Positions 9,076-51,765 of a stretch of 64,000 bases of DNA are shown piece after piece (the stretch's first letter is position 1; each line of letters starts with the position of its first letter). The position numbers and the translations under genes were made by a program. The stretch is taken from contig NW_023365698.1 in the NCBI RefSeq assembly GCF_000003815.2, forward strand, positions 1 through 64,000, in the 5' to 3' direction. The DNA is from Branchiostoma floridae. Taxonomy: Eukaryota > Chordata > Leptocardii > Amphioxiformes > Branchiostomatidae. The notes under the pieces are model-generated. The model was not told the origin of the DNA and searched no databases. It saw nothing but the letters and a program-made list of their open reading frames with translations.

Positions 9076-9331
9076 CTGCAAATATGGGTTGTCATTTTGA
9101 CTGTCCCATTTATTTACACACCGCGGTAGCCTTTCCCTGCCTTTGTATGATAGCTAATGGGTGAATAAAGTATTCAGTATCCGTTTCGATATGGCGTCGC
9201 CGGAACCGATTCAACAATGGTTATACGCATGTGTATTATATATCTTCAGTCAAGTCCACACAGGAAAGTTAAAAAATGATTTAGGCAAGTAATAAAACTA
9301 TTGTGATGTTTTCTTGTTTATTTCAGAAACC

Positions 9332-10153
9332 ATGGCAACCAGCACAAACACACGAAAGCCCGTTGCCCTGGTAACGGGAGGCGGGAGCGGTATCGGTCGT
9401 GCCACGGCGGTCAGGTTTGCTGAGCTCGGGTACAGCTGTGTGGTGGCTGATATCGACGAGCAGAGCGCCAAGGAGACACTGGGCATGCTCCAAACTCCGG
9501 GCATCGCCGTGCAGGTGGACGTTACCATGGCGACAAGCGTGGAAGCCATGGTAACCGCGGCGGTTCAGCGCTTCGGGCGGATCGACTGCGCCTTTAACGG
9601 TGCCGGGACTGAGGGATCGTACGCCAAAATTGTGGATTACCCAGAAGAGGAGTATGACCGCGTTATGGGCGTGAACGCCAAGGGCGTGTGGTTGTGTCTG
9701 AAATACGAGATCGCCCAGATGCTGCAGCAGGAGCCCGTCGTGAGCGACCCGGCTAGATGGGCCGACAAGCCGGACGTGTGCCGCTTCCGCGGGGTGCGGG
9801 GCAGCATCGTCAGCGCCAGCAGCGTGAACGGTCTGAGGGGTGTTCAGTGCCTCAGCCCCTACTGCGCGTCAAAGTGGGCCATTCTGGGGATCACCGAGAC
9901 AGCCGCAGTGGAGTACGCCAAGGACGGGATACGTGTGAACGCCGTCTGTCCAGCGGGGACCGCTACTCCCATGCTGGATCGATTCTGCGAAATGTTGCCA
10001 CTACACCTTCGCGGGCGAGAAGGTCCAAAGGGGTATCCACTCGGTCGCGTAGCGGCGCCCGAGGAGATTGCAGAGGCCGTGTGCTGGCTGTGCAGCGACG
10101 CCTGTCCGTTCACTACAGGAGAGCACCTGAAAATTCTTGGGGGTCGGATGTGA
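9332..10153 (+). CDS. Short-chain dehydrogenase/reductase (SDR), intronless CDS
   Basis: A 273-residue classical SDR, the usual length for the family, that should oxidise or reduce an alcohol/ketone with NAD(P)(H). Visible motifs are the Rossmann glycine motif TGGGSGIG (residues 15-22), acidic D40/D42 after beta-2 (favouring NAD(H)), NGAG (89-92, usually NNAG), N115, S163/S164, and the catalytic pair Y177 and K181 in YCASK. Residues about 135-155 form an extra loop before the catalytic Ser strand. The start is the ATG in ACCATGG, a strong Kozak context. It follows a TTTATTTCAG that could be a splice acceptor, so an upstream non-coding exon is likely. The CDS has no intron and is far more GC-rich than the surrounding repeats. 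Substrate unknown; cytosolic, since no signal peptide is seen. Confidence 0.92.
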   Translation: MATSTNTRKPVALVTGGGSGIGRATAVRFAELGYSCVVADIDEQSAKETLGMLQTPGIAVQVDVTMATSVEAMVTAAVQRFGRIDCAFNGAGTEGSYAKIVDYPEEEYDRVMGVNAKGVWLCLKYEIAQMLQQEPVVSDPARWADKPDVCRFRGVRGSIVSASSVNGLRGVQCLSPYCASKWAILGITETAAVEYAKDGIRVNAVCPAGTATPMLDRFCEMLPLHLRGREGPKGYPLGRVAAPEEIAEAVCWLCSDACPFTTGEHLKILGGRM

Positions 10154-20484: not shown

Positions 20485-20584
20485 NNNNNNNNNNNNNNNN
20501 NNNNNNNNNNNNNNNNNNNNNNNNNNNNNNNNNNNNNNNNNNNNNNNNNNNNNNNNNNNNNNNNNNNNNNNNNNNNNNNNNNNN
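20485..20584. other. Assembly gap, 100 N
   Basis: Exactly 100 N, flanked on the right by two runs of 13-15 C separated by AATTTTTTTCAATT. The homopolymers likely broke the assembly, so the true gap length is unknown. Confidence 0.98.
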
Positions 20585-26519: not shown

Positions 26520-29500
26520 CTAGACTGCCAGGCCGTTAGGTTGTTCTCCAGGAGCGTCTTCCTTGGTCTCGTCCAGAAGTAAGGTCGTCTCGGTGCTTTC
26601 CGCAGCGTCAGTCCCTCCGACAACGTCGGGCGCGGCTGGCGAAGCTTCCTCTTCTGACGTCACGGCGTCAGTTTTCTCTTCCTCAGCGTTTCCTTCTTCG
26701 CTGTTAGCAGTCTTTTCAGATTCGCTCTTAGGGGGGACCGAATTCTGTTGGTTGCTATCTTCCGCCACCTCGCCATTTTCAGCCTTTCGCTCTTCGCAGG
26801 ATTTCTCCTTTTCGGCACCGTCAGTCGGCCCTGCACCGTCCTGGTTACGAGCGCGCTTAAATTTGCTCCACCAGAGCGCTAGGGGAAGTTTCACTGCTTT
26901 CGCTTTCTTGACGTCTTGTGGTGTGCCGTTCTCGGTGGTGGGTCCCGAACTGGGGTCGGCGGGGGCAGACTGGGGTTCTGCCGCCATGGTTGTCTCCAAC
27001 TCTTCAGCGGGAGCCTCCTCGTTTTTGATGGGGATGCTCTTGGCGTTGCCTCGGACCTTGTTCCAGAGGAAGAGCGTGGCGCCGCCTTTTCCCAGCGCGC
27101 AGCACGTGACGTCAGCCGCTACCATGACGACCAGGAGCACGACAATGACAATAGCCGCTGTTCCGCCTGCTGATACCCCTCCCACCTGCTGCGCGGTAAC
27201 CTCAGCAGCAGTCATGAAGACGAAGTCCGCGACTCCAACAGTTCCTGAAGCTCTCATGGCGTAGACTCTCCCCTCGTACTCGGTGTCAGACTGCAGACCC
27301 GTGATGAGGACGGTACTGATGCTGGTGTTTCTGTTGCAGGGTAAGGTGACGTTCATCCACTGATGCCGAAGCTGGTTGGTGCTGGTTTGCCGGTAAGACA
27401 CAGCGCAGTCCACGGCAGGGTCTGTAGGATCAGAGGGGACTGAAGCTCTGAGTTGGTACGCGATAGCTTCTGCGCTAATTTTGTCACTCAAGATGACCGG
27501 AGCATTCGGATTCTGGGATTCCCCGGGGGTTGTGAAGTTCAGAGCCTCGGACGCGTCGCTGGCTCCTGCGATGTTGACGCCTCGCAGACGGATGCTGTAG
27601 GAAGTGTTCTTCGCCAGCCCGTCCAGGGTCATGGTCGTCTCCGAGGCAGGTCCCACCTGTGAAGACATGTCTCCGTTGGAGCCGCTGATCTCTGTGACAT
27701 AGTGTGTCACGGGGACTCCATTCTCACTGTACGACTTCTTGAACAGGATGGTGACTTGATGTGCAGCCAGGTGCGTGACTCGTAGACCGGTCGGCGGGGT
27801 GGGGACTGCCGCCTCCCGGAGAATGATGTTCCTGGACACGCTACCCAGCCCGTTGTATGCAGTGCAGTTGTACTCTCCGTACGTTGTGGAGTTGTTGACT
27901 TTTAGTCCCAGGATGCTGACACCCTCCGCTGTGTAGATTCTAACGTTGCCGTCAGACGAGGGCAGCAGCTCTCTCCCGTCCCGGTACCAGGCCATCTGCG
28001 GGGTGGGGTTACCGCGGGCGCTGCAGCTCATGTTGACGGTGAAGCCGACCACAGCTCCCACTGTGTCCGGTGTGTCCATGAACACCGCTGGGGGGTACAG
28101 CACAGACACCTGGATGTCCCGCTCGGCAAACCGCCCGTCACTCGCCACAGACGCCTCACATCTACAGAGCGAAATTAAAAGATTAAGTTAGTGACAAGCC
28201 AGACACAGACATTCTAACTTTTGTAATGATCACAATGATAAAAGCCTTCACTGTTAACATCTATACTTTAAACCTTAAACATTAAGTTACTAATAAAGTG
28301 ATTAACAAGATTAACTGGTTCACAGATGCGGTCCCAGATGCAAAATATCCACACAAGTGGCGTTTGTATGTTGTAGCGCAATGTGAACCGAGGAAGGTTG
28401 ATTGTATAAAAAGAATCTGTCTCATTCAAAAGAATCTTATTCAGTGACTTGCCAGCCCGTTTGAACCATTTGTGGACAGACAAACGTGTACGTTAAGTTG
28501 GGTAACCTCACATCAAAATTGGTAGTTCAAATTGCCAAGTCTAATCATTGTGCAAAACTTGTGCAAAAACAAAGGAAAAGGCAAAAACAAAACTGCAGGA
28601 AGCCGTTACGAGATGAATAAAGCTAACGAACAAATGACAACGGTATCTAATATAAATTTCATCAATGAACAATTTAAGTTGGCAAGACATTAAAGATAAA
28701 CGATGCTTACTTGTACAGGCCGGCATCTTGCAGCTGGATGTTGCCGATGACTAGGTTGTTGTTGGCCATTTTGCGGTACTTTGCGCTGTTGCCGACCTCG
28801 TTGTTGTCTCTGTACCACACTACTGTCGGCTGGGGGTCCCCGGACACCTGGCATTCCAGAACTGCGTCACTGTGGAGAAACATGGGAGAAGTGTGTTAGT
28901 GACATCTTGTACACCGATAATGACTGTCAATCATGATCAGCAGTTTAACCAATGAGAGAATAGCAATTTGCGTTTTGACTAATGAGTGTTACATGTCACT
29001 GGAGAAACACGGGAGAAGGGTGTTATGAACAACTTGTAGACCGATGATGACTCAATTATAATCAGCAGTTCAACCATCAAGGCTATAGCAATCTTTGTTT
29101 CAAATGTGTAACGTGTCCGTCAAAATATTGTTAAATACGACATTTTGTTTTAATGGAATGGGTGGGGCTGAATGTCAATCACAATTAGCAGTATGACCAA
29201 TGGGAGATTGGTTGCAGGTACGTCATCAAATATTTGCATGTTTACGTTTTGAAAGGTGCGCTTTCCTCATGAAATGTATAAATAAATCAACACTGTAAGC
29301 ATCTCAACCAATGAGAGCACGGCAATTATCGGTTTAACCAATGCGAGAGTAACTTCATGCCGTCCAAACATTTGCATATCTACTCTTTGGCGTGGGTTAG
29401 CGGATCTATTGGACCGGTCTATCGTTACCACATTATGATCTGGTTACAGCCATGAAGGCCACGCGCATGTAGATGCCTGGCCAATAATGACTGTCAATCA

Positions 29501-31710
29501 TAATCAGCAGTTTAACCAATGGGAGGATGCCTGACCTGTTGACTTGGAAGTTCTGCTCAGCCGGTGCGCTGTCGAACGTGATGGGCTTGAACACAACCAG
29601 CACTGACGTGATCTCGTCCCCAGACTCCCCTCGGCACGTGTAGCTTCCTGCAATAAACAACGCACAGTTATTTCTTTAATTAGATTTATCACATAGTGAA
29701 GGGGAGGGCAAAACAGGTGCAAAATGCATACTTGAAGGCTGCCCTCCCACACATAAAAACACATACATGGCACAACATAGACTAAACAATAATATATACG
29801 ATAGAAGCATCATAACGACATTGTCAAAAAATACATTGGTAACTAACAACAGGCATTAGTTATCTAGATATTTAGTCAACTTCGACAATGGAATTGTAAA
29901 AATCCTCTGGCTTCCTTTTGATTATATAAACATATAAACATATAAGCATGTTTTAAAAACATCGTTAATACTGTACATATATAACTATAAGGCAACAGCA
30001 AGTAAATTTCATTGATTAATTACGTCACCTGCAGACTACAAATGAGGATGAAAAAAGCAAGATGGGAAAAAAGGTGCCTGAATTGACAAAACGTTGTAAC
30101 AATTGTACTGACAAAATATGGCATTGCTATGCACCATCTACTAGTAGTCTTATTTCAAGTAGACAGTTGCCACTTAGAAAGTTGGATACTACACTCAAGG
30201 CTACCACACCTATGTTACTTCTACAACTACCGAACTACTACTGCACTGCCGTTATAACTACCGAACTACTGTCACTTCTACAACTGGTCATGGCAACCTT
30301 ACTAATATCACTTCTACAAATCAGTCAACACGGGTGAAGAACAGCAACGACAAATCAAGGCTACCACACGACATTTGCCGATCTTGTTATTTTCTCGTTG
30401 CATGGAGCATCTCGTTTTGCAGGTGAAAATTATTATGCGTGTTGAAAAAGGTGTCATTAAATTCACTTGCTGTGGTTTAAATACGAAATGACTAAACTAA
30501 CAAAAGTATAAACAAGTGTACATTGTTTTTGATGAAGCAGCGTGGAGAAGCAGCACTCCAGAAAGCAACCTTGTTTAAGAAGATCTCAGGAAAGCAGACA
30601 GACAAGGCTTACTGGATATGTTACTTTCTAGACAGATTCAAAGGTGGCTAAGGAGTATAGCTGGCAAAGGGGTTCATGAGCCGGTAGCCAAACCCTCCTA
30701 GGACTGTACTCGTCGGGCAGCTTTTGATACTATGTTAAACAAGAAATTTTTTTAAGAAAAGCTGTGCATTGCCGCGTATTTTATGACTGAACTGCTGAGA
30801 GCGACACCTACAACTTCAGTAGGAAATGCAGCAAAAGGGGATATTGAAAATTTACCTCATTATCATAATTTATGTCACATGAATTATTGGCACATTAAAC
30901 AGGTTTTGTAAAACTTTTTGACCCACAATGAATATGCATTATTTTTCATTACAAAATAAGTTCCTTCTGATGCAATTTGTGATATATCTTTATATAAACA
31001 TGGTGAGTTAAAGCGTAGATTTATTACGCTGGACCACATACAGTAACATGCGTCTAGAAGAGAGTTTAAATACTCGCCTGGAATGTACCATTGTCTAACT
31101 AAGCAATGAAACTCGGCAAGGAAAGAAGGGCCTTTGGAAGGGGCTTTGGAAGGGCTGGGTTAAAAGGTCCGTCCATGGAACCATGGAAGAAAGCTGGCAT
31201 AAGGCATTGCCGATGGCACGGCAATGCAAAAAATTGTTATGCTACCTTTGTATCTGTTTGGAGATTGTGGTTACTGTAAATGCAGAAATGTTCGTGGTTT
31301 CCGCGGTGGCCACTTTACCACGAATTTTAAACCACCGTGAACATTTTCCATGGCAGTACGTACGAGACAATAGTAAATTACGTGTACAGTACATTACAAA
31401 TAATGAACGGTGAGCTATTGTAAACCGTACCTCCGTCTTGCCGCTGGATCTGGAGCACCCTCAGCCTGGACAGGCCCTGGGAGTTCTCCGTGAACACGCG
31501 TACTCCGGTCCCGCTGATCTCGACTCCGGTTGGTCCATACCATCTCAGCTCCTGATTGGCCAGAGACGCGCTGTCGTCACTGCAGGTGAAGATGATGTCC
31601 TCGCCCTCCTTCCGAACAACCGACGGACTGTCCGGCAAAACCCGAACCTGGCCGATCACGCACCGAACACACGTCACTAGCACGAGCAGCACTCGGGCAT
31701 CCACAGGCAT
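26520..31710 (-). CDS. NCAM/fasciclin-II-like transmembrane adhesion protein (3 Ig, 2 FN3)
   Basis: Coding exons 31431-31710, 29536-29647, 28711-28869 and 26520-28161 join in phase to 730 residues. A signal peptide (1-20) is followed by Ig1 (C43-C98), Ig2 (C137-C185), Ig3 (C230-C283), FN3 domains (about 301-398 and 403-503), a membrane helix (about 518-540, ending ADVTCC) and a 190-residue acidic Glu/Ala/Pro-rich tail. Ig1-Ig2 sequence order, DVTC at the membrane boundary and the acidic tail all resemble vertebrate NCAM, where Ig1-2 mediate cell-cell adhesion. NCAM has five Ig domains, so two are missing here. The start is the ATG at 31710, just after the acceptor TTCTAG; a non-coding first exon lies at about 32964-33070. 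It probably acts at the cell surface in cell-cell contact. Orthology versus a paralogous Ig-CAM is not settled. Confidence 0.9.
28867..29530. repeat. Intronic tandem duplication carrying a splice-acceptor copy
   Basis: The block 28867-28980 (TCACTGTGGAGAAACATGGG then GATAATGACTGTCAATCAT) is repeated in diverged form at 28997-29110. Its AATCAGCAGTTTAACCAATG portion recurs near 29180, 29330 and 29490. The first copy contains the real acceptor of the exon at 28869. Confidence 0.6.
31268..31362. mobile_element. MITE fragment, TACTGTAAATGCAGAAA family
   Basis: It starts TACTGTAAATGCAGAAATGT and contains CCGCGGTGG and AATTTTAAACCACCGTGAAC, like 16850-17079 in the opposite orientation. Confidence 0.5.
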
Positions 31711-32963
31711 GGTCACTAGAAGATAATAACAATAGAATCATTATTCACCTATTCACATTTCATCCAGCTACAGGTCACTCAATTCTCTGGAAAACTACAT
31801 ATCAGTTATCAGTGAAAGATATCTTAATTTACTATAATGACTTTTCAAACACATTATTTTTGGTTATGATTTCACAATAAGCCATTCCGTACATTCAACT
31901 ACGCATTTGCGGGTGACAGGAATTGTAGGTAAACATGTCGCCATTTTTGTTTGCAGGCACCATTACGTTCTGGACACTGTTATGCTAATTCACAAGGTGT
32001 AACCATTTGACATACTGTATTACATGTACCCACAAATTCATACAAGCTTACTTGAGGAAGAGCGCTCACTATGCTAGTAAAAGTCACGCGACAAATAATA
32101 TTATATAGTGTTCAGCTTTTACAACTGTTTTTATTACTAACAGTGGATTCTTAATTATAACTTCAACCGCAAAATAAGCATTGGATTTCAGTCTGATTGA
32201 CCAAGGCACCATTTTAACCTCATTTGATTGGCTGAGTTAGTAATCCAATTACACACAAAAATCACGGGGTGCAGTTTGAAATTTGTTAGTAGCGATTATA
32301 CAGAAGGCACCTGGTTTTCATTTAAATTAAACAGTTATCATGGGTCAAGTTTACACAACTGTCAGGCTTGCTTAACACATGCATTTTGTCTAGTAAAAAG
32401 AACTCCAGAAAAAGAACAGGCAATATTTAACACATGCCGAATAAAATCACGTGTTTTGCAGCTGATACAGCTATCGGGTACATTTGCATTTGTTACAGCT
32501 ACAAGGCCACAACTATTTGGAAAACCACGTAAAACTATCAAACCGAAATTGGCTATCAAAAAACCTATTCTTGGTTTACAGAAAGTTAAGTGAATCAAAA
32601 CGTGGTTTGAGACGATACAACTGCGCATAGCTGACAAAAAAAATAGCTTGGCCGCGTATAAAGAACTAAATGCAGACAGTTTTGTTTCGTCGTTAAACCC
32701 TAAAACCATGTTTCTGCTCGTTTTCACTGCTACTCCACGTACAGACTTATAACAAATGAAACGTTTTGATGAGAAATGCAAGTCTCGGGTAGTCACTTTC
32801 TGGGACCACGAATCTTGCATTCAGTGTGGCCACATGTTCACAGCAAAAATGGACGCGTGACCAAGCTGCTAAACAAAAGAAACCCATTCTTCACTGCAGT
32901 ATTCTACGTCTAAACTATGCTAAAATTCCTCTAAAACGCAAGCATAAATAGAAATGAACTTAC

Positions 32964-37371: not shown

Positions 37372-40300
37372 CTATCCTGTCTTCATTCCCTCCTGATACA
37401 AAACAACATCTTTGCCAAACTTGTCAATGCAAGTGTCCATCAAGTCTAAGAGTGTGTTCATGTCTCTGTCCATAGTAGATATCAAGCTCTCCATGGAGTA
37501 CTGGCCAATGTGCAGGTCCTGGTTGTGGGAGGGGGGCAGGGCATTCTTGACTTGCTGGAAGACCTGGGCAGAAAGAAGATGACAAAATGTTGATAAACTT
37601 TCAAAATCAAAAAGACTGAACATTTGATGGACTAACTTGTGATATGAATTGACTTTATCAAGTGTTAGCATTTTCTCCTAACAACTGAAACGAATTTGAT
37701 TATACAAAATGTACTGAAAGGAGATTTGTAATAGGGGAGGGTGGGCAAATTAGGCTGTGCAATTTGTGGTGGATTTCAGTTTGCAGTGAAATGGTCAATG
37801 AGCTAAAAAGAAAAAGCTATCAGGTCGGCCTGGTATAAAGCCGAAACACAGTTTTCATGGACTTGTGCAGTTTCTGCAAGATGGAGTCAGCTCTATCCTG
37901 CTGAGCTAATAATGTACAGCCCCTGTCCGAATTACCTGTTGTGCTAAGTTACAGCTCCTCTTGTCCCTGGCTATGTCCTTACCTGCTGCGCTAATGAACA
38001 GCTCCTGTCCCTGGCTGTGTCCTTACCTTCAGAATCTATGCTATATAAATGGACAGCTCCTGTCCCTGACTGTGTCCATACCTGCTGTGCTAATGAACAG
38101 CTCCCGTCCCCAGCTGTGCCCTTACCTGCTGTACTAATGAACAGCTCCTGTCCCCAGCTGTGCCCTTACCTGCTGTACTAATGAACAGCTCCTGTCCCAA
38201 GCTGTGCCCTTACCTGCTGTGCTAATGAACAGCTCCTGTCCCCAGCTGTGCCCTTACCTGCTGTGCTAATGAACAGCTCCTGTCCCCAGCTGTGCCCTTA
38301 CCTGCTGTACTAATGAACAGCTCCTGTCCCCAGCTGTGCCCTTACCTGCTGTACTAATGAACAGCTCCTGTCCCAAGCTGTGCCCTTACCTGCTGTGCTA
38401 ATGAACAGCTCCTGTTCCCAGCTGTGCCCTTACCTGCCCATTACTGGTTGTCTCCTTACCTGCTGTGCTAATGAACAGCTCCTGTTACTGGCTATGTCCT
38501 TACCTGCTGTGCTAATAAACAGCTCCTGTCCCCTGAGCCATATCCTTACCTGCTGTGCTAATGAACAGCTCCTGTCCCTGGCTGTGTCCTTACCTGCTAT
38601 GCTAATGAACAGCTCCTGTCCCAAGCTCTGTCCTTACCTGCTGTGCTAATGAACAGCTCCTGTCCCCAGCTGTGTCCTTACCTGCTGTGCTAATGAACAG
38701 CTCCTGTCCCTGGCTGTGTGCAGCACCATGTAGAGGTGCTGTGGGAAGTGACAGTTGTGCAGGTAACGCAGCAGCTTGTCCTGGTTCTCTGGACTGCCAT
38801 GGAAGGCAGCGTCAGCTTTGGTCAGGAGCAGCCGCCGACCTGAACAGAGACAGGATCAATGTTGTACTCGTTTAGTTTGATTGTGCATTGCTTGTTGTTG
38901 ATTTGCTCCCATCAGTAGACTGCCCCATTGACCCCAAATAGTGATTTGGTCCTATGCGATCCCAATTTTTGGTGGTCATGGTCGCGTTGGCCAGGTGGTC
39001 ACTTAATGCTTACGTCAACAGGGGAAAATTTGTGGGACTGAGAAAAAGTGGTCGTAATGACCAAGTGGTAGGCTTGAAAGGGTTGGTCACTTGGACAGGT
39101 TTGAATGTATATATAGCCAAGGTTACTCAATCTAGCCGTTAGTATTGAGGGCTGGTTGCATGATAAAAGCAGCTACTGTCACATTCAATTTGAATTAAAA
39201 CGTAAACTATACCTTGAAATCAACAAATCTTTCCAAGTTGTTCACACATTAACGACAAACAAAATAAAATCTTCTGGCTTAAATTGTCCAACCCGTTTAT
39301 TTACATGTGTATGAATACATTGGACTATTCTGCCACTGCATACAGAAAGGAACTTATTCACCCTTCAAATAGATTACATTAAGTAGAAATAGATGTCATT
39401 TCCCTTTTCATCTAGCTATCTGTCTATATAATTATATACATATTTCATTTTCCTTCTTTGTGAAGAATGTAACTCTCTATACCACTATTTTGCATTGTCT
39501 GCTACTGGCCTTTTGGCAAGGTCTAATTTATCAAGTCACCATCAACAACTACAAGTACCTCTGATCCCATAGAGAGATGAAGGTAAGGGCAGCCTGGCCA
39601 GCAAGGTCAGCAGGATGTACTCAAGGTCGTTGTGCTGCTCCGCCCCCAGGGGGGTGACAGCCTGGGTCAGCTCGGCCAGGGCTGGGATGGTCAGGTGGGT
39701 TTTCACAGACACTGGAGCTGAGATCTGTGCTGACATGGTACCTGATGGACATAGAGAAAAGGTTCTTAGTGACAGATGTGCAGATGTTGGCACACTGGTG
39801 CACAGATGGTCAACAGAAGAGCGGCACGGTTTGTGATGAGTAACCACTGCAGGTCTGATGTCAGTGTCACTGGCGGGAACTCACTGCCCTCCTACAGGAC
39901 CCGAAATGGTTGTCACTCCTGTCGCGACGTCAGAATAAATGGCTTAGTAATGATGTACAAGGTAACCAACGATCTGGTGGCCATTCTGGCTACTTGCCTC
40001 TTACCAGCACACATGAGTATCCATGCTAACCACTCACATAAGTACAGAACTCTACGATGCAGGTGTTACACTGCAAAGTATGCCTCATACGCTAGGACGA
40101 TTCCCGAGTCAAACAGCCTCTACCCCCACATTGTCAACAGCCCATCACTGGACAAATTCATAGTCCAGACGTTGGGTCTCCTCCATCTGCGTGATATTCC
40201 TACCAGGAAGTTTGCAGATTATGGACTTGAACTAGAACTGGAACTAACACCCTCCGGTTTAATTTGGAAATTCCATTATTATTTGGGAGTGACCTCCCAG

Positions 40301-43300
40301 ATCTCAGCAACCGTGCACCCAGATGGGCTAATATCGTAAGATGTAAGTATAAATGATGTAAGAAATATGTAGCAGCCAATAACGATCCCCTGGGGATTAA
40401 TCTAAATTGGCATAACTGTACATAATTATGCATAATTATGCATAATTATGCATAACTTTTGAGGGTTATGCATAATTATGCATAAGTTTCCAATGGTTAT
40501 GCATAATTATGCATAAGGTTCCAAGAGTTATGCATAATTATCCATAAGGTTCCTAGTTTTATGCATAATCATGCTTGTTCAAGGGTTATGCATAAGGGTT
40601 CTGATGATTATGCATAATTCTTGGAACCTTATGCATAATTATGCATAACCATTGGAAACTTATGCATAATTATGCATAACCCTCAAAAGTTATGCATAAT
40701 TATGCATAATTATGTACAGTTATGCCAATTTAGATTAATCCCCAGGGGGTCGTTATTGGCTGCTACGTATTTCTTACATCATTTATACTTACATCTTACG
40801 ATATTAGCCCATCTGGGTGCACGGTTGCTGAGATCTGGGAGGTCACTCCCAAATAATAATGGAATTCCCAAATTAAATCGGAGGGTGTTAACTGCATCTG
40901 GCACACCAAATCTGTGTGTGTGTTTTGGACAGACAATCCCTGGGACTTGGTGGGCGTCACTCCACCGTCAGGGAAAAAGTGGTGTAAAGTGCCTTTCCCA
41001 AGCCTAGGGTAGAATATTGGGCCATGGTAAGTATCAAGCCCAGGACCTGAAGTGGTTCTGACTCTAATGCTCAGACTGTTACTAGTGTTAGGCCACACCG
41101 ACACACCATTGGGCAGACAGCTGCTTTTAGAATTATCACGGTAATGGCAAATTACGTACACTTCAAAAACATGTTAAAAATGTATGTCAAACATATTGGA
41201 AAATGAAGCACTTCTACAATCACAAAGTCAAGAGATCCTTAAAAGGGCCACCAAATTTTATCCTACTTTTTGTAAGATGTGACCACCTATTTGCTGCTGT
41301 GCAATGTGAGCTTATCACAATTGCTCTCTGATCTTGATGGAGAAGGTGACTGATGGTTACTCAAATGTTGGTTGAATAAAACACTTTGTTTTGCACAAAA
41401 AATTTTGTTATTCAGTGATTGCCACAATGATGAAATATTTCACAGGTCCTCAGTCATATGACCAGACTGGAATTTAGTTGACCTTCATCTGAAAATTCCA
41501 CCAAGTACGTAATATCCGATTTTCTTTGCAATCTGATAGCTTGACCAAGTATGTCCAAAAGCAAGATTTTTTTCTGAGCTGCTCTATGGACGCAACACAA
41601 ATAAAGTTCATGTAAGGACGTCATGATTTGCAGCGACTTACAAGACATCTCGAAAAAAAGCTCAATGACAGGTACTCAAAGTTGTTATGTGCTGCTCTGT
41701 ACGTCTTGGAAAGAACTCCCCACAAAGAAACTGCTATATGATATTGGGATCTATCCCCACCCCCCCATATCATGTTCCACCAGACTGAGTGTTGCTTCAG
41801 AAAGCCAATATCTAAAGCATGAGAAAAGGCTGTCACAAAAATCCTCGATATGGCTGAAATGGACAATACACGAAGAGTACCCCATCATATATGGTCCACC
41901 CCCTGAACACGAGAGACAGTCTTTCTTCCTTAAAAGCTTTCCATAATAAACCATTCATATAGTTATTACATGTACCTAGCATACAGCTAGGAGGAGTTAA
42001 AAAAAGTTAAACCCTTCCCGCGCCTCATGGCACATAGGGCGGCGCCCATCTCTATTTCCTTAGCCCTGGGCCACACAAAGCAATCACTACAGCAGGGGGC
42101 TATGTAGTCCACTGGTAGTGGTGTGTGTTCAACTTCCATACTCTTTCCCGAATGCTGAGTGCTAAGCAGAGAAAGCAGCATGTACCATTTTTAAAGTCTT
42201 TGGTATGACTCGGCTGGGGATCAAACTCACGACCTACCGAATGCAGGGCGAACACTCTACCCACTAGACCATTGCACTGGTTCTGGATGTGGAGGAGGAG
42301 ACAAGATAACGATGTCCTGACCTGTAACCCCCCCGCTTCTGTCCTTGAGCTGAGCGAAGTTGTCCCGTAGTGTCCCCACCGTCTGCACCAGCCCCATCTT
42401 CTGCAGCTCCACATGCTCCAGGTGCCGGCTGCAGGTGGGAACCATCTGGTACAGCTGGGGGAAGGAATCAATCAAGAGCTCATTGTTTAGCAACAAATTA
42501 GGATACTTTTTTTAATAAATGTTTTTGTTTTTTACATTTTATACTAATGTTAGGTTTTGATATTTGTCAATCTGAGGTACACATACCTTGTCGTCAAAGT
42601 CTTTACATTTTCAGGTAAAATTCAGGGAGTGAAAGTCTGCAAACTCAGATTTTTGTGGTCATTAAGCTGAATCTGTTTCACACAAACTCACTTTGATGAA
42701 AGCCCTACTCTCATTTGTGAACAGTTAAGATGTGTGAACTAGCACAGGCACAGGAACTGGTTACTGAAGTTTAGGTAACAGATCTGGACCGGGAACAGTC
42801 ATGAACTATTTGACTAGTAACTAAAATAACATTGTACAATTCAATAATGACACAAACAGTTGTAATAAACTAGCCTGTGCCATGTGTCCTCAGTTTTGCA
42901 AGGGTATCTCATATTAAAGATGGCATTTTGATTTCAATGCCATATTCAAGGAGGTTCCTTGCTATACTACTGTACTTTCATATTCATCTTTGCTAAATGT
43001 TGAGCTTTGTGGTTAAGTTTTTATGCATATAATCAAACAACGGATAGTGAGTGAGCAGGGCTCGAAATACACTTTTCAGTCAACTTGCACCAGTGCAAGT
43101 TAAGCCAAAGGTAACTTGCACCAAAAGAAACTTACTTGCACAACCCAAAATAGTGAACTGTTAACCCTTTATTCTTCTTCTGAAAATTTGCAAATATATG
43201 GGGATACATAAAGACCACATGTTTGGATATTTGTTTTCCAAAGCGTATTTTATTTTGGATTTCAAATTGTACAACAAATGTGAATTTAGGCTTAATTTAA

Positions 43301-46300
43301 GACAATTCAATGTCTACAACTTGATATGATCAATAGATTTCTTCTGGACTCTTCGAGTGACTTCCATCACTATTCTTAACCATCGCTAGAACAACTCAAT
43401 ACAAACACATATAACTGGAAAATCCAGTTGATCATATCAAAGTCACTAAATTGTATGCAAAATGTATTTACTCATATGCAAATCAAGGTAAGACAACACC
43501 ATAGGAATTATTAGCATTATAGAGATGGAATTGTCTTCAAATTTTGTTTACCTGGATGTCTAACCAAGTTTAGAAATAACAAATTTAGGCTATTTTTTTA
43601 TTCAGTGTTGTTTTCTTTTACCTTTCAATGGCAGACAATATTCTTGGTGTGTGTAAGCTTTTTCTAAAGTCAGGTATTAGTGGATAAAAGTAACTTGCAC
43701 TGGTGCAAGTTTGGTCCAAACTTACTTGCACCACACCAATTTTACATGCACAAACTTGCATATGCATGTGGTATTTCGAGCCCTGGTGAGTGAGTGCATC
43801 TTCAAAAGTCACAAATAAGAATATACTAAGTCTTAGATTTTGTACAGTACATGGTATATTAAGATCTGCTGTTTTGAACACATACTGAAACAATTCTAGT
43901 GGTACTGTACATTAGACATTGTAGTAAGAACTGCTAGTGCTATGGTCTTACCCCCATGAGTCTGTCCAGTTGATACACCAGTAACTGGGACAGGTGGAAC
44001 TCCTCTGGTCCTGCCTTAGACATGAACATTGCCTTGAACACCTGGCCTGCTGTATCCTGTAAGGTCACAGTGAGCTGTCCCCCGGGGATGGCCTTACCCC
44101 CCGCGGGGTGCTGGAAGTTATCTGCCGAGGTGACGCTGCTGTTAGCTAGGATGGATGCCCACTTCTCATCAGTCAAACCTGCAAAGTTAACATGTAAACA
44201 ACAAACATCCTGTTCAGTGTCCAAGAACTGTCACTGGACAAAGTACGCATCTTGGATTGGTTTGTGAGGGGTGTAAAGGAGGCCATTTATATTAGGGCGC
44301 ATCAACCCTCTCTGAACCATGATGGTGGTAGGTTCCACCTGCCGCCATTTATGATTTGCTGCTGATTACTGACGTCATCCAATGACTTTCGGAACATCAG
44401 AACAGCGAATTATCTATCTAAAGAAGGTCGGAGTCCTAGACCGAAAATTTATGGTGAGTCTTTATGTTGTTACTTTGAAACAAAGTTTAAACTTTTTTCA
44501 TTAACTATATTTGTACATATAACTATAGATTATATAAGTGCAAATTTTATCATCCACAGGGTATTCTACTGTTATTCCTGATTTTTTAATGTACTGTTAC
44601 TGTATGTTCACTGTTTTCACGGTGAAGACTGTAACGTGAACTTATCATTACTGATAACAAATAATTCACAGAAGACAATTTGAAAGTGAATTAAAGTATA
44701 TCCATTGTTTTTAAATCCAGGTTATAAAAGGATATCAAGTCAACAGTTTCAGATTGTAAAATTTTAGGAATAGCACAGTTTTAAACCACCATCTGTCAAC
44801 TTGATATCCCTAAATACATGTGTAATCATGCAATTTTGATTCAATTGTAACAGTCCTATGCACATAAATTTTTGACAGTTTAAAAAAAAGCTTTTGACCA
44901 TAGGGTAATTAGTACAAGCAGCTGCAAAATTAGCAAATATATACTGGAGCCTTAACGGCAAAGGTCCTACAAATGGGCAGAAAAATTTTCTGCGGACGCA
45001 AAGTATTGTGTTTGCAATTGTAGCAGTCATGGTTAACATAATACCACTACCAATTAAAAATTCAATCTTGAAATAGTTTAACTGTAATATCCAACACAAA
45101 AATTGGACTCACCCAAATTTTTGACAGCACAGCATCAGTCTTTGTCAAGGAATGAACAGCAGGTTTCCACTTAGTTACTCAGTGAGCAGTGGATCATAGG
45201 CTGCAGGAAGTCTATGGCGCCCACCGTCTCTACTCAGGGAAGGTTGTAAAGCTCTGATTTCACAGGAGAAGTGGATTGTTCATTCCTTGACATTAGACTG
45301 ATGCTGTGCAGTCAAAAATTTGGGTGTTGGAAATTACAGTTTAACTATTTCAAGAATGACTTCTACCAACACAGATGAACTTTCAAGTTAAAGATTCAAT
45401 CATTATGCATTTCCTATAGTTATTGGCCCACACCTTTCCATCCACAGTCCCTCATCAGTCTCTCCTCTCTCCTCCCCCTCAGGTCTCTCTGTTTCTGTAG
45501 CTCCTCCTCCACACAGGGCTGCTGCTGAAATACACTCTTCTGATTGGCTGAGTGCTTTTGTCCAGTAGTTTGATTGACGGCTGGCTGAACCCTACTCCCA
45601 CCCTTACTCTGTGGCTTTATGTAAATTGTTGTTCCCTGGTTGGCTGCTGGATCAGATGCACCATTCTTCAAGAAGATAGTCAACCATCCTGTAGTATCAT
45701 ATATATATAAAAAGTCATATAGTATATCATAAGAATAAGATATGATAAGAATATCAATCATTGAGACACACTGAATGTAGTACCTACATGTGTATTCAAT
45801 AATCATACTATAGTTTTGTCTTCCATATATCACAAAAAGACCAAACAGTAGGGGTGGGTACCGGTAAAGTGTAATGGTACAAAACCGCTTTTTCTTTATT
45901 GGACCAGTCCAGAAAAAATGGACCTGAAAAAATTTGGTGACCGGATATTGGACCTATTGGAAAATGAACAGATTATATGATCAGGCATTCACACATTTTG
46001 AGGCTTACTGGTCGAAGAATATAACTAGAGCAAAGTAGAGTAGAGTCTACAGTCATTTTCTACCAAGTTTTACAATCAATCGTACAGAGGCAGTTATCCT
46101 TGTAGGTTTTTATAATGTCAGCGGGAGTCCAATAGTATACTCCACAAAACAGATTTCTTTGTTGCGAAATGGACTGTCTTATTGTTTTGAGTATAGTCTA
46201 TTCACAAGTTTTGACATACTGAATCAGGTTCAGGTTTCAGACCTGGACCTGATCCTCTGGACCTGAACCAGACCTGGACATGAATTTTCCGTACTGGTAC

Positions 46301-49300
46301 CCACCCCTACTAGTACCCAACAGTGTACCTGAGTATCCTATCCAACCCTAGTCCAGGGTACCATACCCACCCCTGGTCCAGTGTACTATACAGACCCCTG
46401 GTGAGTACTGTCAGTTTCATGTCTAGTGAGCAATTGTGATTCACCTTCTACACTGTGATGAGGAATGGAGACAAAAGCTCTACATCTCAGATCTTTGTCA
46501 CACTTTAAGATGGCATCCTGCAGACCCTGTGCCGTCAGCACACATCCCCAGTCAGCACGGGAGTTGGGACAGGGGTAGTCAAACTTGGCCTGGTAGTCGG
46601 AATTCTCCAGCTTGATGTAACCATGGGCATTTGGTACCTATGTGGGACAGTACAAGTCATGGTCTTTTCTTTGGCAGTCCAGTTAAAGTCTTAGATTTAC
46701 AATGAGCAAAAAAGACAACCCACAATTTCAAACCTATTGAGTACATTTCATTACAAGTCAGACTTATGTAAAACTGTAATATCTTAACACCGCAAAATTT
46801 GCATACTGACACATTGTTTGATCACCTGTTGGAGTCTTTCACATATCATGATATTTTTGCCACTACTTTATCAGAAATTACTTTTATCAGAAAACATGTA
46901 TACATAAAATTTATCTGAGTGATACTATATATAGTTATACAAGTATGCTTGGGTGTAATAAGTTAGTAGGTTTGCATTAATACTAAAATTAATACTAAAT
47001 AAAATCATGGCTCATCAAAAAAAGTATTCCTGTTTCCTATATCTTAGCATCATTTGACTTTGAATTGGTCCTAGGACAGATCCCGATCGCAATCTGTACT
47101 TAGTCTAGTAGAATCGAAGATTGACCTAGGACAGATCCTGATTGCAGTCTGCCCTAGGACCAAGTACGATCGTGATCTCTCCTAGGACGATCGGCCATTC
47201 TACTGGATCGTGATCTCTACTGTGACATAATATAACAAACTTTGATGGTACAGTCCCCTTCTGAGAATGGAAGAACAGAAGTCAAAGAAGAACCTATTAA
47301 GTATGTGAATGACCCTGTAAGAGATAGACTGACAACATTATAAGGGAAGATCTCCCCAACCTATACAGTGCCCACCCTAATTATAGGGTGCAATCAAGCC
47401 TCCACATCTAAGTGTGAGTATGTTTAATCCTCGCCTGACGGGAACAACAGACACTTAACTGGATGGTGAGTGTGCATGTGAGTGTGGGGTAATGTCTAGA
47501 ACACTGCTGAATCAGTGGTCAGTACTGAGAATTAGTTAGCTGGCAGTCTGACCTTCTCCTGACCTTGTCCCTGGTCCTGTTGACTGGGAACTGCAGGGAT
47601 GATGGGGTGGGGGGCATCGGTTATTGGATCATCATCTGCAACAAAAAAACATTCATATAGGGTCTGCAGTTTGAACTGTCTTTGAGTGACTGTGTCATTG
47701 ATGAAATAAAATGCAACAGCTTTTAATAACATTCAACGATATCATTCAATGAGGGACATTTGTACAAAATATACACCCTTCTGATGTTACCAGGCAAGTT
47801 TCATCCCAGACCTCACAGTGAACAAAGCAGCCTGTTTGGAACCTGGCATCAAAATTTGTGTTAAATATTCTTTTAAATTGCTCAGAGCAAACATTGTGAT
47901 GACTCCAAAAAGTGAATTTTTTTCTATTGTGCTGTTAGTCTATGGAACACCCGACCACCAAACGTCAAATCTCTGACCACTCTTTTGACCACTTTTTAAA
48001 AGGCAGTTTGTTTGTAAGTTAATTCATACATGTATGTCTCTTTTGATCTAATAATAGTATAAGCTGAATGTCTGTATACATGTGTATATTTATTTTAAAT
48101 TGTTTGAAACCCTGGTAAACTAGCACTAAAGTAACGGGCTATCACAATAAAGGAATAAAGGAAGGAACTTATTACAAATCTGACCTTTGTAAATGAGGAG
48201 GAGCTTTTCCAGCAGCTCTTGTGCATCAAGTGACAAACTGTCCAGCTCCCACAGGAGGTCCTGCACTTTGTGAGCAACCTGCTCGGGGGCGCTGCTGACC
48301 AACAGGGGGCGCAGGAAGTACTGATACACATTGTGTAGATTAGTCTTGGAATTGTAATTCTTGCAGCGGAAGTTGGAACATGGAGACCCTGTGGTAAGAA
48401 ATCAATGGGTAAAGATTTGGTACTAGTACGAGTTAAAGAATGGACAAACAGTGATGATGATGGCTGTTTCTTCGTATCCGAAGATCAATGGTAGGCAGAC
48501 AGGTTGATTAGACGACCAGTCTGCCTGGCCTGCACGTGACTTTTTAAGGTGAAGGAGGGGTGTGCACTTTCTTCTCCGACCTCTCGTCTACTGGCGCACT
48601 AAGTCCTACAGTGACAGAACTGTTTTGCCACGTAAGATGGCCCCAGCAAATGCAGGTTTATTATTTGGAGTTTCCATCTCCTAGGAGGACTTCCGACCAA
48701 GGACGCAAGGGGTTCCTCCTACCCCCGACTCGTGTGTCATGGCGGGTGCGTCATGCCCGAACATGCCCCTATGGCCTGTCACCACAACAAAGGCCTATCA
48801 CTGCCACTAGCCGCAGCTATGTACTCATTTACACCTGAGTTAGGTGAGGAAAGTCGTGTAAAGTGCCTTTCCCAAGGGCACAAGATCGGTGACACGGCAA
48901 GCGGATTTGAACCCGGGACCTCTCGGGCCTGAGACCAACGCGCTCCCGATCGTGCCACGCGGTCCCACATTGGACAAACAGTAAACACTGGGTAATTACT
49001 GAGACTGTGCATTTGCATAAATCTACTTGATTGTAGAAAACATTTTATATTGTGACTCACTAGCATCCAGTCCCTCCAGCTGGCAGTCTGCGTGTGAGTT
49101 ACAGACAGGCTCCGTCCCCACCAGACTTCCCACCCCCACCAGCCGGATGGACCCTTCCGACATCATGAACATGCTGTCTGTGAAGTTGGCCATGAGCAGA
49201 TCTCCCATGGACGAGCGCTGCAGAACTCGCAGTAAACTGGCTAAGTCCAGGCAAATCTGAAAACGGTAGGAATGCATGGGGACATTATTAAACAGCTTAA

Positions 49301-50687
49301 CTATAGTACCGACAATAGTTTCATCAGGTTGGTAGAATATAGGATATAAGAGAATTCTTTTTTACCAGCAGGTACATGTACTTACATTGCTTAATTACAT
49401 TTCGATGTCTTTCAGACACCTTCGTCAGAGTTTCTAACTGGAGTTCTGCTTCTCACCGCTATATGTAGCCGATGTAGGTGGAGCTTTTGCGGCGAGAAAA
49501 GAATCCCAAACAGTGGTAGCGGTACATATAGTGGTGAAAAGCAGAACTCCAGTTAGAAGCTCTGACAAAGGCGTCTGAGAGACATCAAAACATAAGCAAT
49601 GTAACTTATGTAAGTATCTGCTGGTTGTGAAAAAGAATTCTCCTAGTCCTATATCCAGTAACTAAAGACAACATAGTACATGATTGCAGACAAATAACAA
49701 TAATAACATTTTTGAGAAAAATAGGCCTTCATTTGCACAAATCATATCTAGAAATATTTCTCTAATCATGATCATCAATGGACCCCTTCTTAAGCTATTC
49801 TCTTTCAAACTCTGGAATAAAAAATTGTAGATTCTGCCTATAATGTTTACTAGTACACATACTCAGACACAGGTATTTGAGATAATACAGTTCTTATGAT
49901 TTTATATGTAGCATACCTTCAACCTCTGTCTCCATGGTAAAGTCTCCAACCCAGAGTCATGGATGGGAGTTCCCATCTCCGTGACTAGTGTGACTCCCTT
50001 GTCCTGACCGGTCCCCTCCCCACGCACACAGTACCCCAACATCCTCACCACATTTGGGTGAGTCAGTTCTTGGAGTAACAGAATCTCCTTAATCAACTTG
50101 TAGCTGGGGAGAAGAAAGCAGTCCTCCTTCTTGATATACTTCTTTGCTTCCAGGCATTTCTCGACTTCCGGCAGGTCGACATTCACACTCTTCACTGCAA
50201 CCAGCTGTGTTCCATACAGTCCCTTTGCCATAACTTTGCCCCCTATTTTTATAATCCCGGTAATTTGTATAGCATCGATGTCCCTACACCCCCACATGCT
50301 ACGCTGGTGTGTCTTGTATGCAGGTCTTGCCCCTGCTTCGTTCAACCCAAAGAGAACAGAATCCAGGTCTAGACCCAGGTCTTCAAGGTGTTTTCCCTGA
50401 CTTAAGTTACCAACTATATAGCTGAGTTTATCGTGCAGAAAGTCTCTCTCTGCGACAGCGTCTAGAAGCTGCTCGTTAAGCCGGCTAACGAGGCTCTGTA
50501 GACCGGAGATGTGGCGCCACCTATCCTCCGTCCGGGCACTGTTCTTAGTGTCCCATATAGTAACGAAGCTGCCGAGTTGTAGATGAAGTAACAAGTACAC
50601 GATTAGGAAGAGAAGTGGGAAGAGCAGGCACTTGCGACCGATGGCTTTTCTGTTGGATGTGGTCATACTGAGATAAGGGAGGAGCAT
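37372..50687 (-). CDS. VLK/PKDCC-like plus FAM20-like two-module secretory (pseudo)kinase
   Basis: Eleven coding exons join in phase: 49917-50687, 49061-49256, 48185-48388, 47553-47635, 46445-46637, 45434-45688, 43952-44178, 42322-42454, 39559-39741, 38682-38839 and 37372-37563. They total 2595 nt and 864 residues. Residues 19-40 are a type II anchor, suggesting Golgi/secretory location, and 55-90 are probably coiled coil. Residues about 130-390 match VLK/PKDCC: VAVK (K166), LIKE (E201), HPNVV, and NLHNVYQYFLRP. The PKDCC C-terminal Cys module and FLKNG...TIYIK follow (419-505). Exon 6 then splices into exons 7-11, which resemble FAM20: QLTVTLQDTAGQ, LVYQLDRLMG, NCHFPQHLYMVL and the C-terminal helix. 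The catalytic Asp positions look replaced in the VLK part (N281, G298). In the FAM20 part, M620 and Q632 replace Lys and Glu, and no MDRHH box is present. The fusion is supported by phase; function is inferred. The start may be Met1 or Met8. Confidence 0.85.
37925..38716. repeat. 44-bp minisatellite of splice-donor copies
   Basis: About 17 units of 44 bp. On the minus strand each reads CAGGAGCTGTTCATTAGCAC then AGCAG then GTAAGG. The right-most unit (38682-38716) is the real end and donor of exon 10 of the two-module kinase gene. The array therefore multiplied an exon-intron boundary into the intron. Confidence 0.9.
38950..39115. mobile_element. pogo-like MITE fragment
   Basis: Contains GGTGGTCATGGTCGCGTTGG, AAAAAGTGGTCGTAATGACC and the end TTGGACAGGTTTGAATGTA, like the right half of the element at 56720-57212. 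Confidence 0.5.
39870..40190 (+). pseudogene. Reverse transcriptase C-terminal remnant
   Basis: The plus strand encodes INGLVMMYKVTNDLVAI, then HSHKYRTLRC, then ARTIPESNSLYPHIVNSPSL then DKF. This is the usual end of CR1-like RT proteins (M-Y-K-I-T-x-G-L-V-A-I ... H-S-H-K-Y ... P-R-T-I-P-E-W-N-S-L). It lies in the intron between exons 8 and 9 of the two-module kinase, antisense to it. Confidence 0.75.
40245..40890. mobile_element. 646-bp palindromic foldback element with ATGCATAATT array
   Basis: The arms start TAACACCCTCCGGTTTAATT and end with the complement ATCGGAGGGTGTTA. Both arms continue inward over about 300 bp, with AGATGGGCTAATATCGTAAG matched by CTTACGATATTAGCCCATCT. The centre is an array of TTATGCATAATTATGCATAA. 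There is no coding capacity. It sits in an intron of the two-module kinase gene. Confidence 0.9.
40950..41130 (-). mobile_element. Decayed SINE related to 48550-48970
   Basis: Contains AAGTGGTGTAAAGTGCCTTT then CCCAAG, as in the 48.8-kb copy, but the tRNA-like head has decayed. Confidence 0.45.
41994..42290 (-). mobile_element. tRNA-derived SINE in an intron
   Basis: The minus-strand head (42290-42207) reads GCAATGGTCTAGTGGGTAGA, with an A-box-like TGGTCTAGTGGG and a B box GAGTTTGATCCCC. A non-tRNA body follows. It begins only about 30 bp from exon 8 (ends 42322) of the two-module kinase gene. Confidence 0.75.
43056..43785. mobile_element. hAT-like element, CAGGGCTCGAAATAC ends
   Basis: Ends CAGGGCTCGAAATAC and GTATTTCGAGCCCTG, flanked by GTGAGTGAG on both sides (an 8-9 bp target duplication). 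The subterminal sequence has AACTTGCACCAGTGCAAGTT palindromes. A shorter relative is at 59181-59500. No transposase seen. Confidence 0.85.
45067..45354. mobile_element. Foldback element with ~50-100 bp arms
   Basis: The left arm has CTTGAAATAGTTTAACTGTA and GACAGCACAGCATCAGTCT. The right arm has AGACTGATGCTGTGCAGTC and TTACAGTTTAACTATTTCAAG. It lies in the intron joining the VLK-like and FAM20-like parts. Confidence 0.8.
45849..46309. mobile_element. hAT-like element, GGTCC/GGTACC-palindrome family
   Basis: Ends TAGGGGTGGGTACCGGTA and GTACTGGTACCCACCCCTA. The body is collinear with the two halves of the split copy at 5305-7702 (CGTACAGAGGC, ACTCCACAAAACA). An exact target duplication is not clear; CCAAACAG before and CCCAACAG shortly after may be its remains. 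Confidence 0.8.
47930..48170 (+). mobile_element. Non-LTR retrotransposon 3' end in an intron
   Basis: Plus-strand codons read AVSLWNTRPPNVKSL after a frameshift. The end is ACGGGCTATCACAATAAAGG then AATAAAGGAAGG, an RT tail plus repeated 3' terminus. It ends about 15 bp from exon 3 of the two-module kinase gene. Confidence 0.6.
48550..48970 (-). mobile_element. tRNA-derived SINE
   Basis: The minus-strand head (48968-48890) reads GACCGCGTGGCACGATCGGG with B box GGGTTCAAATCCGC. The body includes AAAGGCACTTTACACGAC. The A/B-box spacing suits an internal pol III promoter. It is flanked by repeat-like DNA inside the intron between exons 2 and 3. Confidence 0.7.
49341..49656. mobile_element. Foldback element with ~120-bp arms
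   Basis: The left arm has GGATATAAGAGAATTC and CTAACTGGAGTTCTGCTTCT. The right arm has the complement AGCAGAACTCCAGTTAGAAG and ends GAATTCTCCTAGTCCTATATCC. It lies in the first intron of the two-module kinase gene. Confidence 0.8.
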
Positions 50688-51064: not shown

Positions 51065-51765
51065 CTACAAGCGAGATTTAATCAGGCTACTTACAGCAGT
51101 CTACATGTACAACACCTACCTACAGCAGTCTACAACACCTACTTACAGTGCTCAGTCTACAACACCTACCTACAACAGTCTACAACACCAACTTACAGTA
51201 GTCTACAACACCTACCTAGAGCAGTCTACAACACCTACCTAGAGCAATGTCTACAACACCTACCTACAACAGTCTACAACACCAACTTACAGCAGTCTAC
51301 AACACCTACCTAGAGCAGTCTACAACACCTAACCTACAGCAGTCTACAACACCTACCTACAGCAGTCTACACCACCTACCTACAGCAGTCTATACCACCT
51401 ACCTACAGCAGTCTACAGCACCTACCTACAGCAGTCTACAACACCTACCTACAGCAGTCTACAACACCTACCTACAGCAGTCTACAGCACCTACCTACAG
51501 CAGTCTACAACACCTTACCTAACGTTATATACAACACCTACCTACAGTAGTCTACAGCACCTACCTACAGCAGTCTACAACACCTACCTACAGCAGTCTA
51601 CAGCACCTACCTACAGCAGTCTACAGCACCTACCTACAGCAGTCTACAGCACCTACCTACAGCAGTCTACAACACCTACCTACTTGTACCGCAGTCTACA
51701 GCACCTACGACCTACTAGTACAGCAGTCTAAAACTACCTACCTACAGCAGTCTACACTTTGACTG
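51065..51765. repeat. 23-bp minisatellite between divergent genes
   Basis: About 30 units of CAGTCTACAACACCTACCTACAG, with a few truncated or mutated ones. It starts about 380 bp upstream of the two-module kinase start and ends about 540 bp upstream of the RPB11 start. Confidence 0.9.

Follow-up and report, generated by a model that had tools for sequence, protein, structure and literature searches.

A gene that probably joins two kinase-like halves

The window (the whole stretch of 64,000 bases analysed here, which is the beginning of the 175,201-base Branchiostoma floridae contig C140) probably contains a single gene for a type II double pseudokinase of the secretory pathway, in which a PKDCC/VLK duplicate is spliced to a divergent domain of the FAM20/four-jointed type. 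Three things can be read from the sequence itself: the splice model, homology for each half and the absence of a stop codon between them.

The gene runs on the minus strand from 50687 to 37372 and has 11 exons (Table 1), whose borders were re-derived from the sequence and spliced by script. All 10 introns are bounded by GT and AG, the phase is consistent across every junction of the spliced model, and the coding sequence (2595 nt including the stop codon) encodes 864 residues with no internal stop. The first-pass annotation, which had described one gene fusing a VLK/PKDCC-like kinase with a FAM20-like kinase, gave the same span, number of exons, ten phase-consistent junctions and lengths, and re-splicing reproduced them exactly. 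Its junction between the halves was likewise recovered: AAAG/GTGTGG at the end of exon 6 joins TTTGCAG/GTTTGA at the start of exon 7, in phase 1. Among three ends tried for exon 7, only 43952 keeps the frame.

With a contig of just 175,201 bases and eroded catalytic residues (see below), the locus could be a decaying pseudogene, or its halves could have been brought together by mis-assembly. Either is very improbable: no N lies between the halves or elsewhere in the gene (the only N run of the window is at 20485–20584), and 864 intact codons accompany 20 canonical splice sites. GC3 is high in exons 7–11 (0.718; the total GC of the 10 introns is 0.341–0.497), exon 6 reads through the site of the former stop without a break in the sequence, and the intron repeats are also present on large contigs.

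Table 1. Exons of the fusion gene and the intron between its halves (window positions).
Feature	Positions	Strand	Basis
Exon 1: putative signal anchor (residues 20–38), stem, VLK-like N-lobe (K166, E201)	49917..50687	-	Splicing, hydropathy, tblastn to 3 paralogues
Exon 2: VLK-like catalytic region; N281 for catalytic Asp, G298 for metal-binding Asp	49061..49256	-	Splicing, tblastn, alignment
Exon 3: VLK-like C-lobe	48185..48388	-	Splicing, tblastn
Exon 4: linker ahead of Cys module	47553..47635	-	Splicing
Exon 5: PKDCC-type C-terminal Cys module	46445..46637	-	Splicing, tblastn to C1, ungapped tail alignment
Exon 6: homologue of final PKDCC-type coding exon, without the stop; 55 further linker codons; donor	45434..45688	-	Splicing, comparison with C1
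Intron 6, separating both halves	44179..45433	-	Repeat matches, start-exon scan
Exon 7: start of FAM20-like domain; β3 Lys K616, helix with E627/Q632	43952..44178	-	Splicing, alignments
Exon 8: diverged middle of FAM20-like domain	42322..42454	-	Splicing
Exon 9: FAM20-like, diverged catalytic-loop region	39559..39741	-	Splicing, alignments
Exon 10: C-lobe with C778; 3' end and donor inside 44-bp tandem array	38682..38839	-	Splicing, HMM alignment, repeat analysis
Exon 11: C-terminal helix with C846, then stop	37372..37563	-	Splicing, tblastn, HMM alignment

The first half derives from PKDCC/VLK

Genome searches covered the whole assembly (513,431,437 bases in 431 contigs). A search with exon 1 returned the window and three paralogues, on contigs C8, C1 and C18. 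With the entire first half, tblastn gave E values of 1.4e-13 (C1), 1.9e-13 (C8) and 1.7e-12 (C18), the latter two against limited stretches; in the kinase region, 35% (C1), 34% (C8) and 40% (C18) of the residues are identical. Within the stretches searched, the Cys module is matched by C1 alone (35% of 51 residues, E 3.4e-05) and aligns without gaps to that of the C1 gene. The C1 gene is probably PKDCC, judged by its architecture, which resembles that of the human protein.

In the Pfam search, residues 204–368 match PIP49_C, the model of the FAM69 kinase domain, with 28.8 bits against a cut-off of 25.2. Among kinases, PKDCC and SGK196 are the nearest homologues of FAM69, and PKDCC occurs in Metazoa (PMC3696010, in excerpt). 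Against the PDB, the first half finds ordinary kinases, a plant receptor kinase being the best (4e-06; best 60 of 130 matches). An exon-by-exon search of the genome with PIP49_C gave 29 matches, which include neither the window gene nor that on C1; the one on C18 reached only 18.5 bits. Residues 20–38 form the most hydrophobic segment of the protein (mean Kyte-Doolittle value 2.38, with nothing above 1.28 past residue 50) and look like a type II signal anchor. Judged by these comparisons, the first half is a PKDCC/VLK derivative with a predicted signal anchor, a kinase domain and a Cys module; the PIP49_C match and the ungapped alignment to C1 bear out the first-pass annotation on this point, Cys module included.

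The second half resembles the FAM20 superfamily

Standard libraries miss exons 7–11. Neither Pfam FAM20C (PF06702) nor FAM198 (PF15051) matches the second half at E up to 1, the sole Pfam listing being DUF3913 at 15.5 bits, below its cut-off of 25, and no PDB chain is found at E <= 10. In the genome, no second FAM20-like copy was found with this half, the 6 matches at E <= 10 being the window's own exons. Custom profiles were therefore built from stretches of human FAM20A, FAM20B and FAM20C and from lancelet FAM20B (C8) and FAM20C (C13). Further members were the GASK genes on C2, C3 and C5, a four-jointed (Fj) gene on C19 and a FAM20-like gene on C14. The C14 and C19 genes were picked from sub-cut-off FAM20C matches (17.2 and 21.9 bits), and C14 was included partly for its resemblance by eye to the window, which may favour its score.

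Residues 572–864 score 13.0 bits against the FAM20 profile, 13.6 with Fj added, 23.8 with C14 added and 30.0 with Fj, C14 and GASK added. None of 2000 shuffled sequences reached these scores (maxima 5.9, 8.6, 4.8 and 6.1 bits, respectively; HMMER reported 1095–1324 of the 2000, the remainder falling under its threshold), and the reversed second half scores at most 1.2 bits against the four profiles. Residues 521–864, compared with 200 shuffles each, gave 15.5 bits against the two lancelet FAM20 genes (best shuffle 1.3), 12.3 against five FAM20 sequences (1.0) and 10.4 against two lancelet FAM20 genes plus GASK (4.8); the GASK-only profile barely separates them (9.2 against 6.0). Against FAM20 and GASK, the same residues gave 14.8 bits (best of 200 shuffles 1.5, reverse 2.6).

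Two islands supply the profile signal: one in the N-lobe, with the β3 Lys and the next helix, and one in the C-lobe, which extends from the CC motif as far as the last helix. Alignment is uncertain for the central part of this half, and the N-lobe aligns poorly with C14 and Fj. Matches by tblastn reach E 0.009 (FAM20B) and 0.014 (C14), while hhalign with a single query sequence is weak (probability 21%, 3% and 6%). Taken together, the profile scores support placing the second half within the FAM20/four-jointed/GASK superfamily, and membership in FAM20 proper is not supported. The first-pass description of exons 7–11 as FAM20-like thus stands at the superfamily level by profile, but not for FAM20 proper, given the lack of a Pfam or PDB match and the weak hhalign result. 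In the profile searches it had suggested, PIP49_C exceeds its cut-off and the custom FAM20 profiles exceed their shuffles, whereas Pfam FAM20C and FAM198 find nothing.

The halves are probably joined where a stop codon used to be

The Cys-module exon of the C1 gene has a phase-1 end, and the final coding exon reaches its stop after 29 residues (borders set by eye). Window exon 6 follows the same intron, in phase 1 and at the corresponding alignment position, and the tails of the two proteins align without gaps from the Cys module to the C1 stop. This stop maps to window residue 513, and the frame of the window gene runs on as far as the donor at residue 567, which adds 55 codons and agrees with the earlier claim that exon 6 passes a PKDCC-type stop. 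An open run of 55 codons has a probability of about 0.07 by chance (equal codon use). Hence, the case rests on the lost stop together with the phase-matched donor and acceptor and the coding second half.

The same locus could instead hold two overlapping units, namely a VLK-like protein that ends after exon 6 and a FAM20-like one that starts in intron 5, exon 6 or intron 6. Read past its donor, exon 6 continues with VGQ and then a stop, so that a transcript left unspliced there would end the first protein; in the upstream direction, the frame of exon 6 extends into intron 5 and includes Met codons there (ORF 45420..45953). An in-frame Met561 in exon 6 precedes the entire FAM20-like domain and could start a leaderless protein. 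Intron 6 lacks AATAAA on the minus strand; it does contain a single ATTAAA (44590), which could end a transcript, and a single TATAAA (44291). The first-pass annotation, which saw no Met, promoter or polyadenylation signal between the halves, does not mention Met561.

Against two units, the hydropathy scan found no hydrophobic leader in the second half: residues 483–864 reach a maximum of 1.28 and contain no strongly hydrophobic stretch, so a FAM20-type protein starting here would be cytosolic. Scanning of intron 6 found no ATG-started ORF of at least 30 nt that ends in a phase-1 donor scoring above 3. The gene's own 10 donors score 1.0–7.4, with 8 above 3, and since the other 2 fall below, a start exon with a weak donor could be missed at this cut. 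Finally, the halves are linked by a canonical, phase-matched donor and acceptor. We consider two units unlikely. With no leader in the second half and no start exon found in intron 6, the best reading is that both halves are made from one transcript, as the sequence would predict.

Two dispersed repeats with copies on other contigs match 603 of the 1255 bases of intron 6. They lie at 45059-45392 and 44229-44497, each with copies on many contigs, and the former also matches itself on the opposite strand.

Catalytic residues are lost

The VLK half keeps K166 and E201, and both catalytic Asps are replaced. Where C1 has HDF, the window reads ANF (N281), which also creates a glycosylation sequon, and the metal-binding Asp has become G298 (LVGVGS in the window versus LADLDD in C1, LSDMDD in C8 and LTDLDD in C18). 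The two Asps are kept in all three VLK-type paralogues. We thus have good confidence that the VLK half is a pseudokinase, as its residues would predict.

For the FAM20-like half, 25 alignments were tallied: one by MAFFT with FAM20 and GASK, 15 to profiles, seven of the C-lobe and two further MAFFT alignments. K616 aligns with the β3 Lys in 9 of the 10 alignments to FAM20-containing profiles and in all three MAFFT alignments; it is opposite a gap or absent in all five alignments to GASK alone. E627 lies opposite FAM20C Glu306 in one of two HMM alignments, the gap being placed differently in the other. A Gln in place of the catalytic Glu, as in FAM20A, was considered and dropped, for Q632 sits at NAEI, off the Glu306 position.

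The position of the metal-binding (DFG-type) Asp holds an Asp in none of the 25 alignments; in MAFFT with two FAM20 and two GASK sequences, this region falls in a gap. At the catalytic position, an Asp is found in 10 of 25: D769 in eight (the MAFFT alignment with FAM20 and GASK, 5 of the 15 profile alignments, all FAM20-only, 1 of the 7 C-lobe alignments and 1 of the 2 further MAFFT alignments) and D758 in two of the 15 profile alignments. Six of the seven C-lobe alignments put T755 at the metal-binding position and L735 or a gap at the catalytic one.

Cysteines bear on this choice of register. The profile HMM aligns C778 with the CC motif of FAM20 and C846 with the Cys of the last helix; Cys341 and Cys400 of hmFam20 form a disulphide (PMC5865150, in excerpt), whose counterpart pair would be C778 and C846. 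Their position on a known FAM20 disulphide favours the register with T755 and L735 or a gap. FAM20's four disulphides are not retained, C778 and C846 matching one pair only. The first Cys of the CC motif is N777 in the window and residues 652–777 hold no Cys that could be its partner, which fits the joint loss of one disulphide.

Alternatively, the gene could encode a single fusion protein whose FAM20-like half is an active kinase and whose first half is its regulatory pseudokinase. The retained K616, the placement of E627 opposite Glu306 in one HMM alignment and the Asp that 10 of the 25 alignments place at the catalytic position fit such an arrangement; the metal-binding position lacks an Asp in every alignment, and the C778-supported register leaves T755 and L735 or a gap at the two sites. 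We regard an active second half as improbable. The FAM20-like half is likewise predicted to be a pseudokinase, with less confidence than the VLK half. The word kinase, applied to both halves by the first-pass annotation, is hence not supported: the VLK half has N281 and G298, and in the FAM20-like half the metal-binding Asp is never recovered and the catalytic Asp is uncertain. Missing canonical residues do not equal inactivity, as POMK, once called a pseudokinase, is a kinase (PMC5142810, in excerpt).

Relation to known proteins and a possible role

The gene shares with PKDCC/VLK (SgK493) a signal anchor, a PIP49_C-related kinase domain, the Cys module and, as seen in the C1 paralogue, the position and phase of the last-exon intron. 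It differs in having Asn and Gly for the catalytic and metal-binding Asps and in lacking a stop after the PKDCC-type tail, where a second kinase-like domain follows.

FAM20A has been described as the first secreted pseudokinase; it binds FAM20C and raises its activity, and is itself disabled by Gln258 (PMC7948968, in excerpt). The window gene resembles it in FAM20-superfamily profile similarity and, as proposed here, in being a secretory-pathway pseudokinase. Unlike FAM20A, it is far more divergent, lacks the Cys-rich FAM20 middle stretch and most disulphide Cys, and has its FAM20-like domain fused to a VLK-like one; in addition, FAM20A keeps both Asps (in the sequence stretch used), in contrast to the second half of the window gene. 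Four-jointed/FJX1 (C19) and the C14 gene have, like the window gene, a single Cys at the FAM20 CC site and a Cys in the last helix, but in the stretches fetched their FAM20-type domains come without a VLK half. GASK1A/B (FAM198) belongs to the same superfamily; its three lancelet genes (C2, C3 and C5) keep a DRLDR catalytic loop, unlike the window's second half, which has no FAM198 model match.

No VLK–FAM20 fusion was found in literature titles and the starts of abstracts, among the matches listed, and the first-pass annotation likewise knew of no described protein with both. To our knowledge, secretory-pathway kinases have one kinase-type domain each. Beside the other VLK-type genes of this lancelet, no FAM20-like exon was found in fetched stretches of about 20 kb (C1 and C8) or 10 kb (C18), the best FAM20-like score near the C1 gene being 4.2 bits; the fusion was seen once in this genome, as far as the stretches fetched around the three VLK-type genes go.

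We propose that the stop codon of a PKDCC/VLK duplicate was lost and that a splice donor arose 55 codons farther on, whereby exon 6 would have become spliced onto exons encoding a highly divergent domain of the FAM20/four-jointed type. The outcome would be one mRNA and a luminal protein that has given up catalysis, a loss that appears firm for the VLK half and weaker for the other, and that keeps VLK- and FAM20-type surfaces within one chain. Since residues needed for catalysis are missing in one half and probably in both, a regulator or scaffold is likelier than an enzyme. The two pseudokinase domains might then jointly scaffold an active luminal kinase or regulate it allosterically as its partner, by analogy with FAM20A and FAM20C.

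Active-looking kinases of both lineages occur in this lancelet, namely FAM20B and FAM20C (DRHHYE) and the PKDCC-like C1 gene. Tentatively, and with considerable doubt that it will hold in this form, we suggest that the protein is an anchored single-chain regulator of the lancelet lineage that binds and controls both types of luminal kinase, or acts as a gate that sends substrates to tyrosine phosphorylation or to that of Ser/Thr or sugars. If true, the fusion would suggest that the VLK and FAM20 lineages are physically or functionally linked, and its route would be traceable in a former last exon that has no stop and has a new donor.

Repeats and other loci

A 44-bp tandem array of about 17 units, split into two blocks (37932-38719), occupies part of intron 10 and takes in the 3' end of exon 10 together with the donor. 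The sequence GCACAGCAGGTAAGG has 15 matches with at most 2 mismatches in this array, against 0.08 expected. It seems that the exon 10–intron junction itself was amplified, which would provide many potential donors. Intron 8 contains an imperfect array of GCATAATTAT units at 40410-40725, and a 23-bp tandem array of about 25 units lies just upstream of the gene (51108-51683).

The FAM20-like gene on C14 (13749500-13753500, ORFs 1-1413 and 1465-1968 of that stretch) has an unusual layout. Two FAM20 HLDR-type helix motifs, THYLDRVLD and AYYVDRLTG, are seen by eye in one frame, and the gene may carry two FAM20-like domains. Its second part scores 26.2 bits against Pfam FAM20C (cut-off 26.8), and its first part gives only sub-cut-off chance listings.

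Of the 29 exon-level PIP49_C matches found genome-wide at E up to 1, 24 lie above the cut-off, which suggests that a FAM69/DIPK-type family has expanded in this lancelet. Elsewhere in the window, a 285-residue ORF on the plus strand (9296-10153) resembles short-chain dehydrogenases/reductases by its VTGGGSGIGRA motif, and minus-strand ORFs at 26520-28187 and 31378-31737 resemble an immunoglobulin/fibronectin-III cell-surface protein, both as judged by eye.
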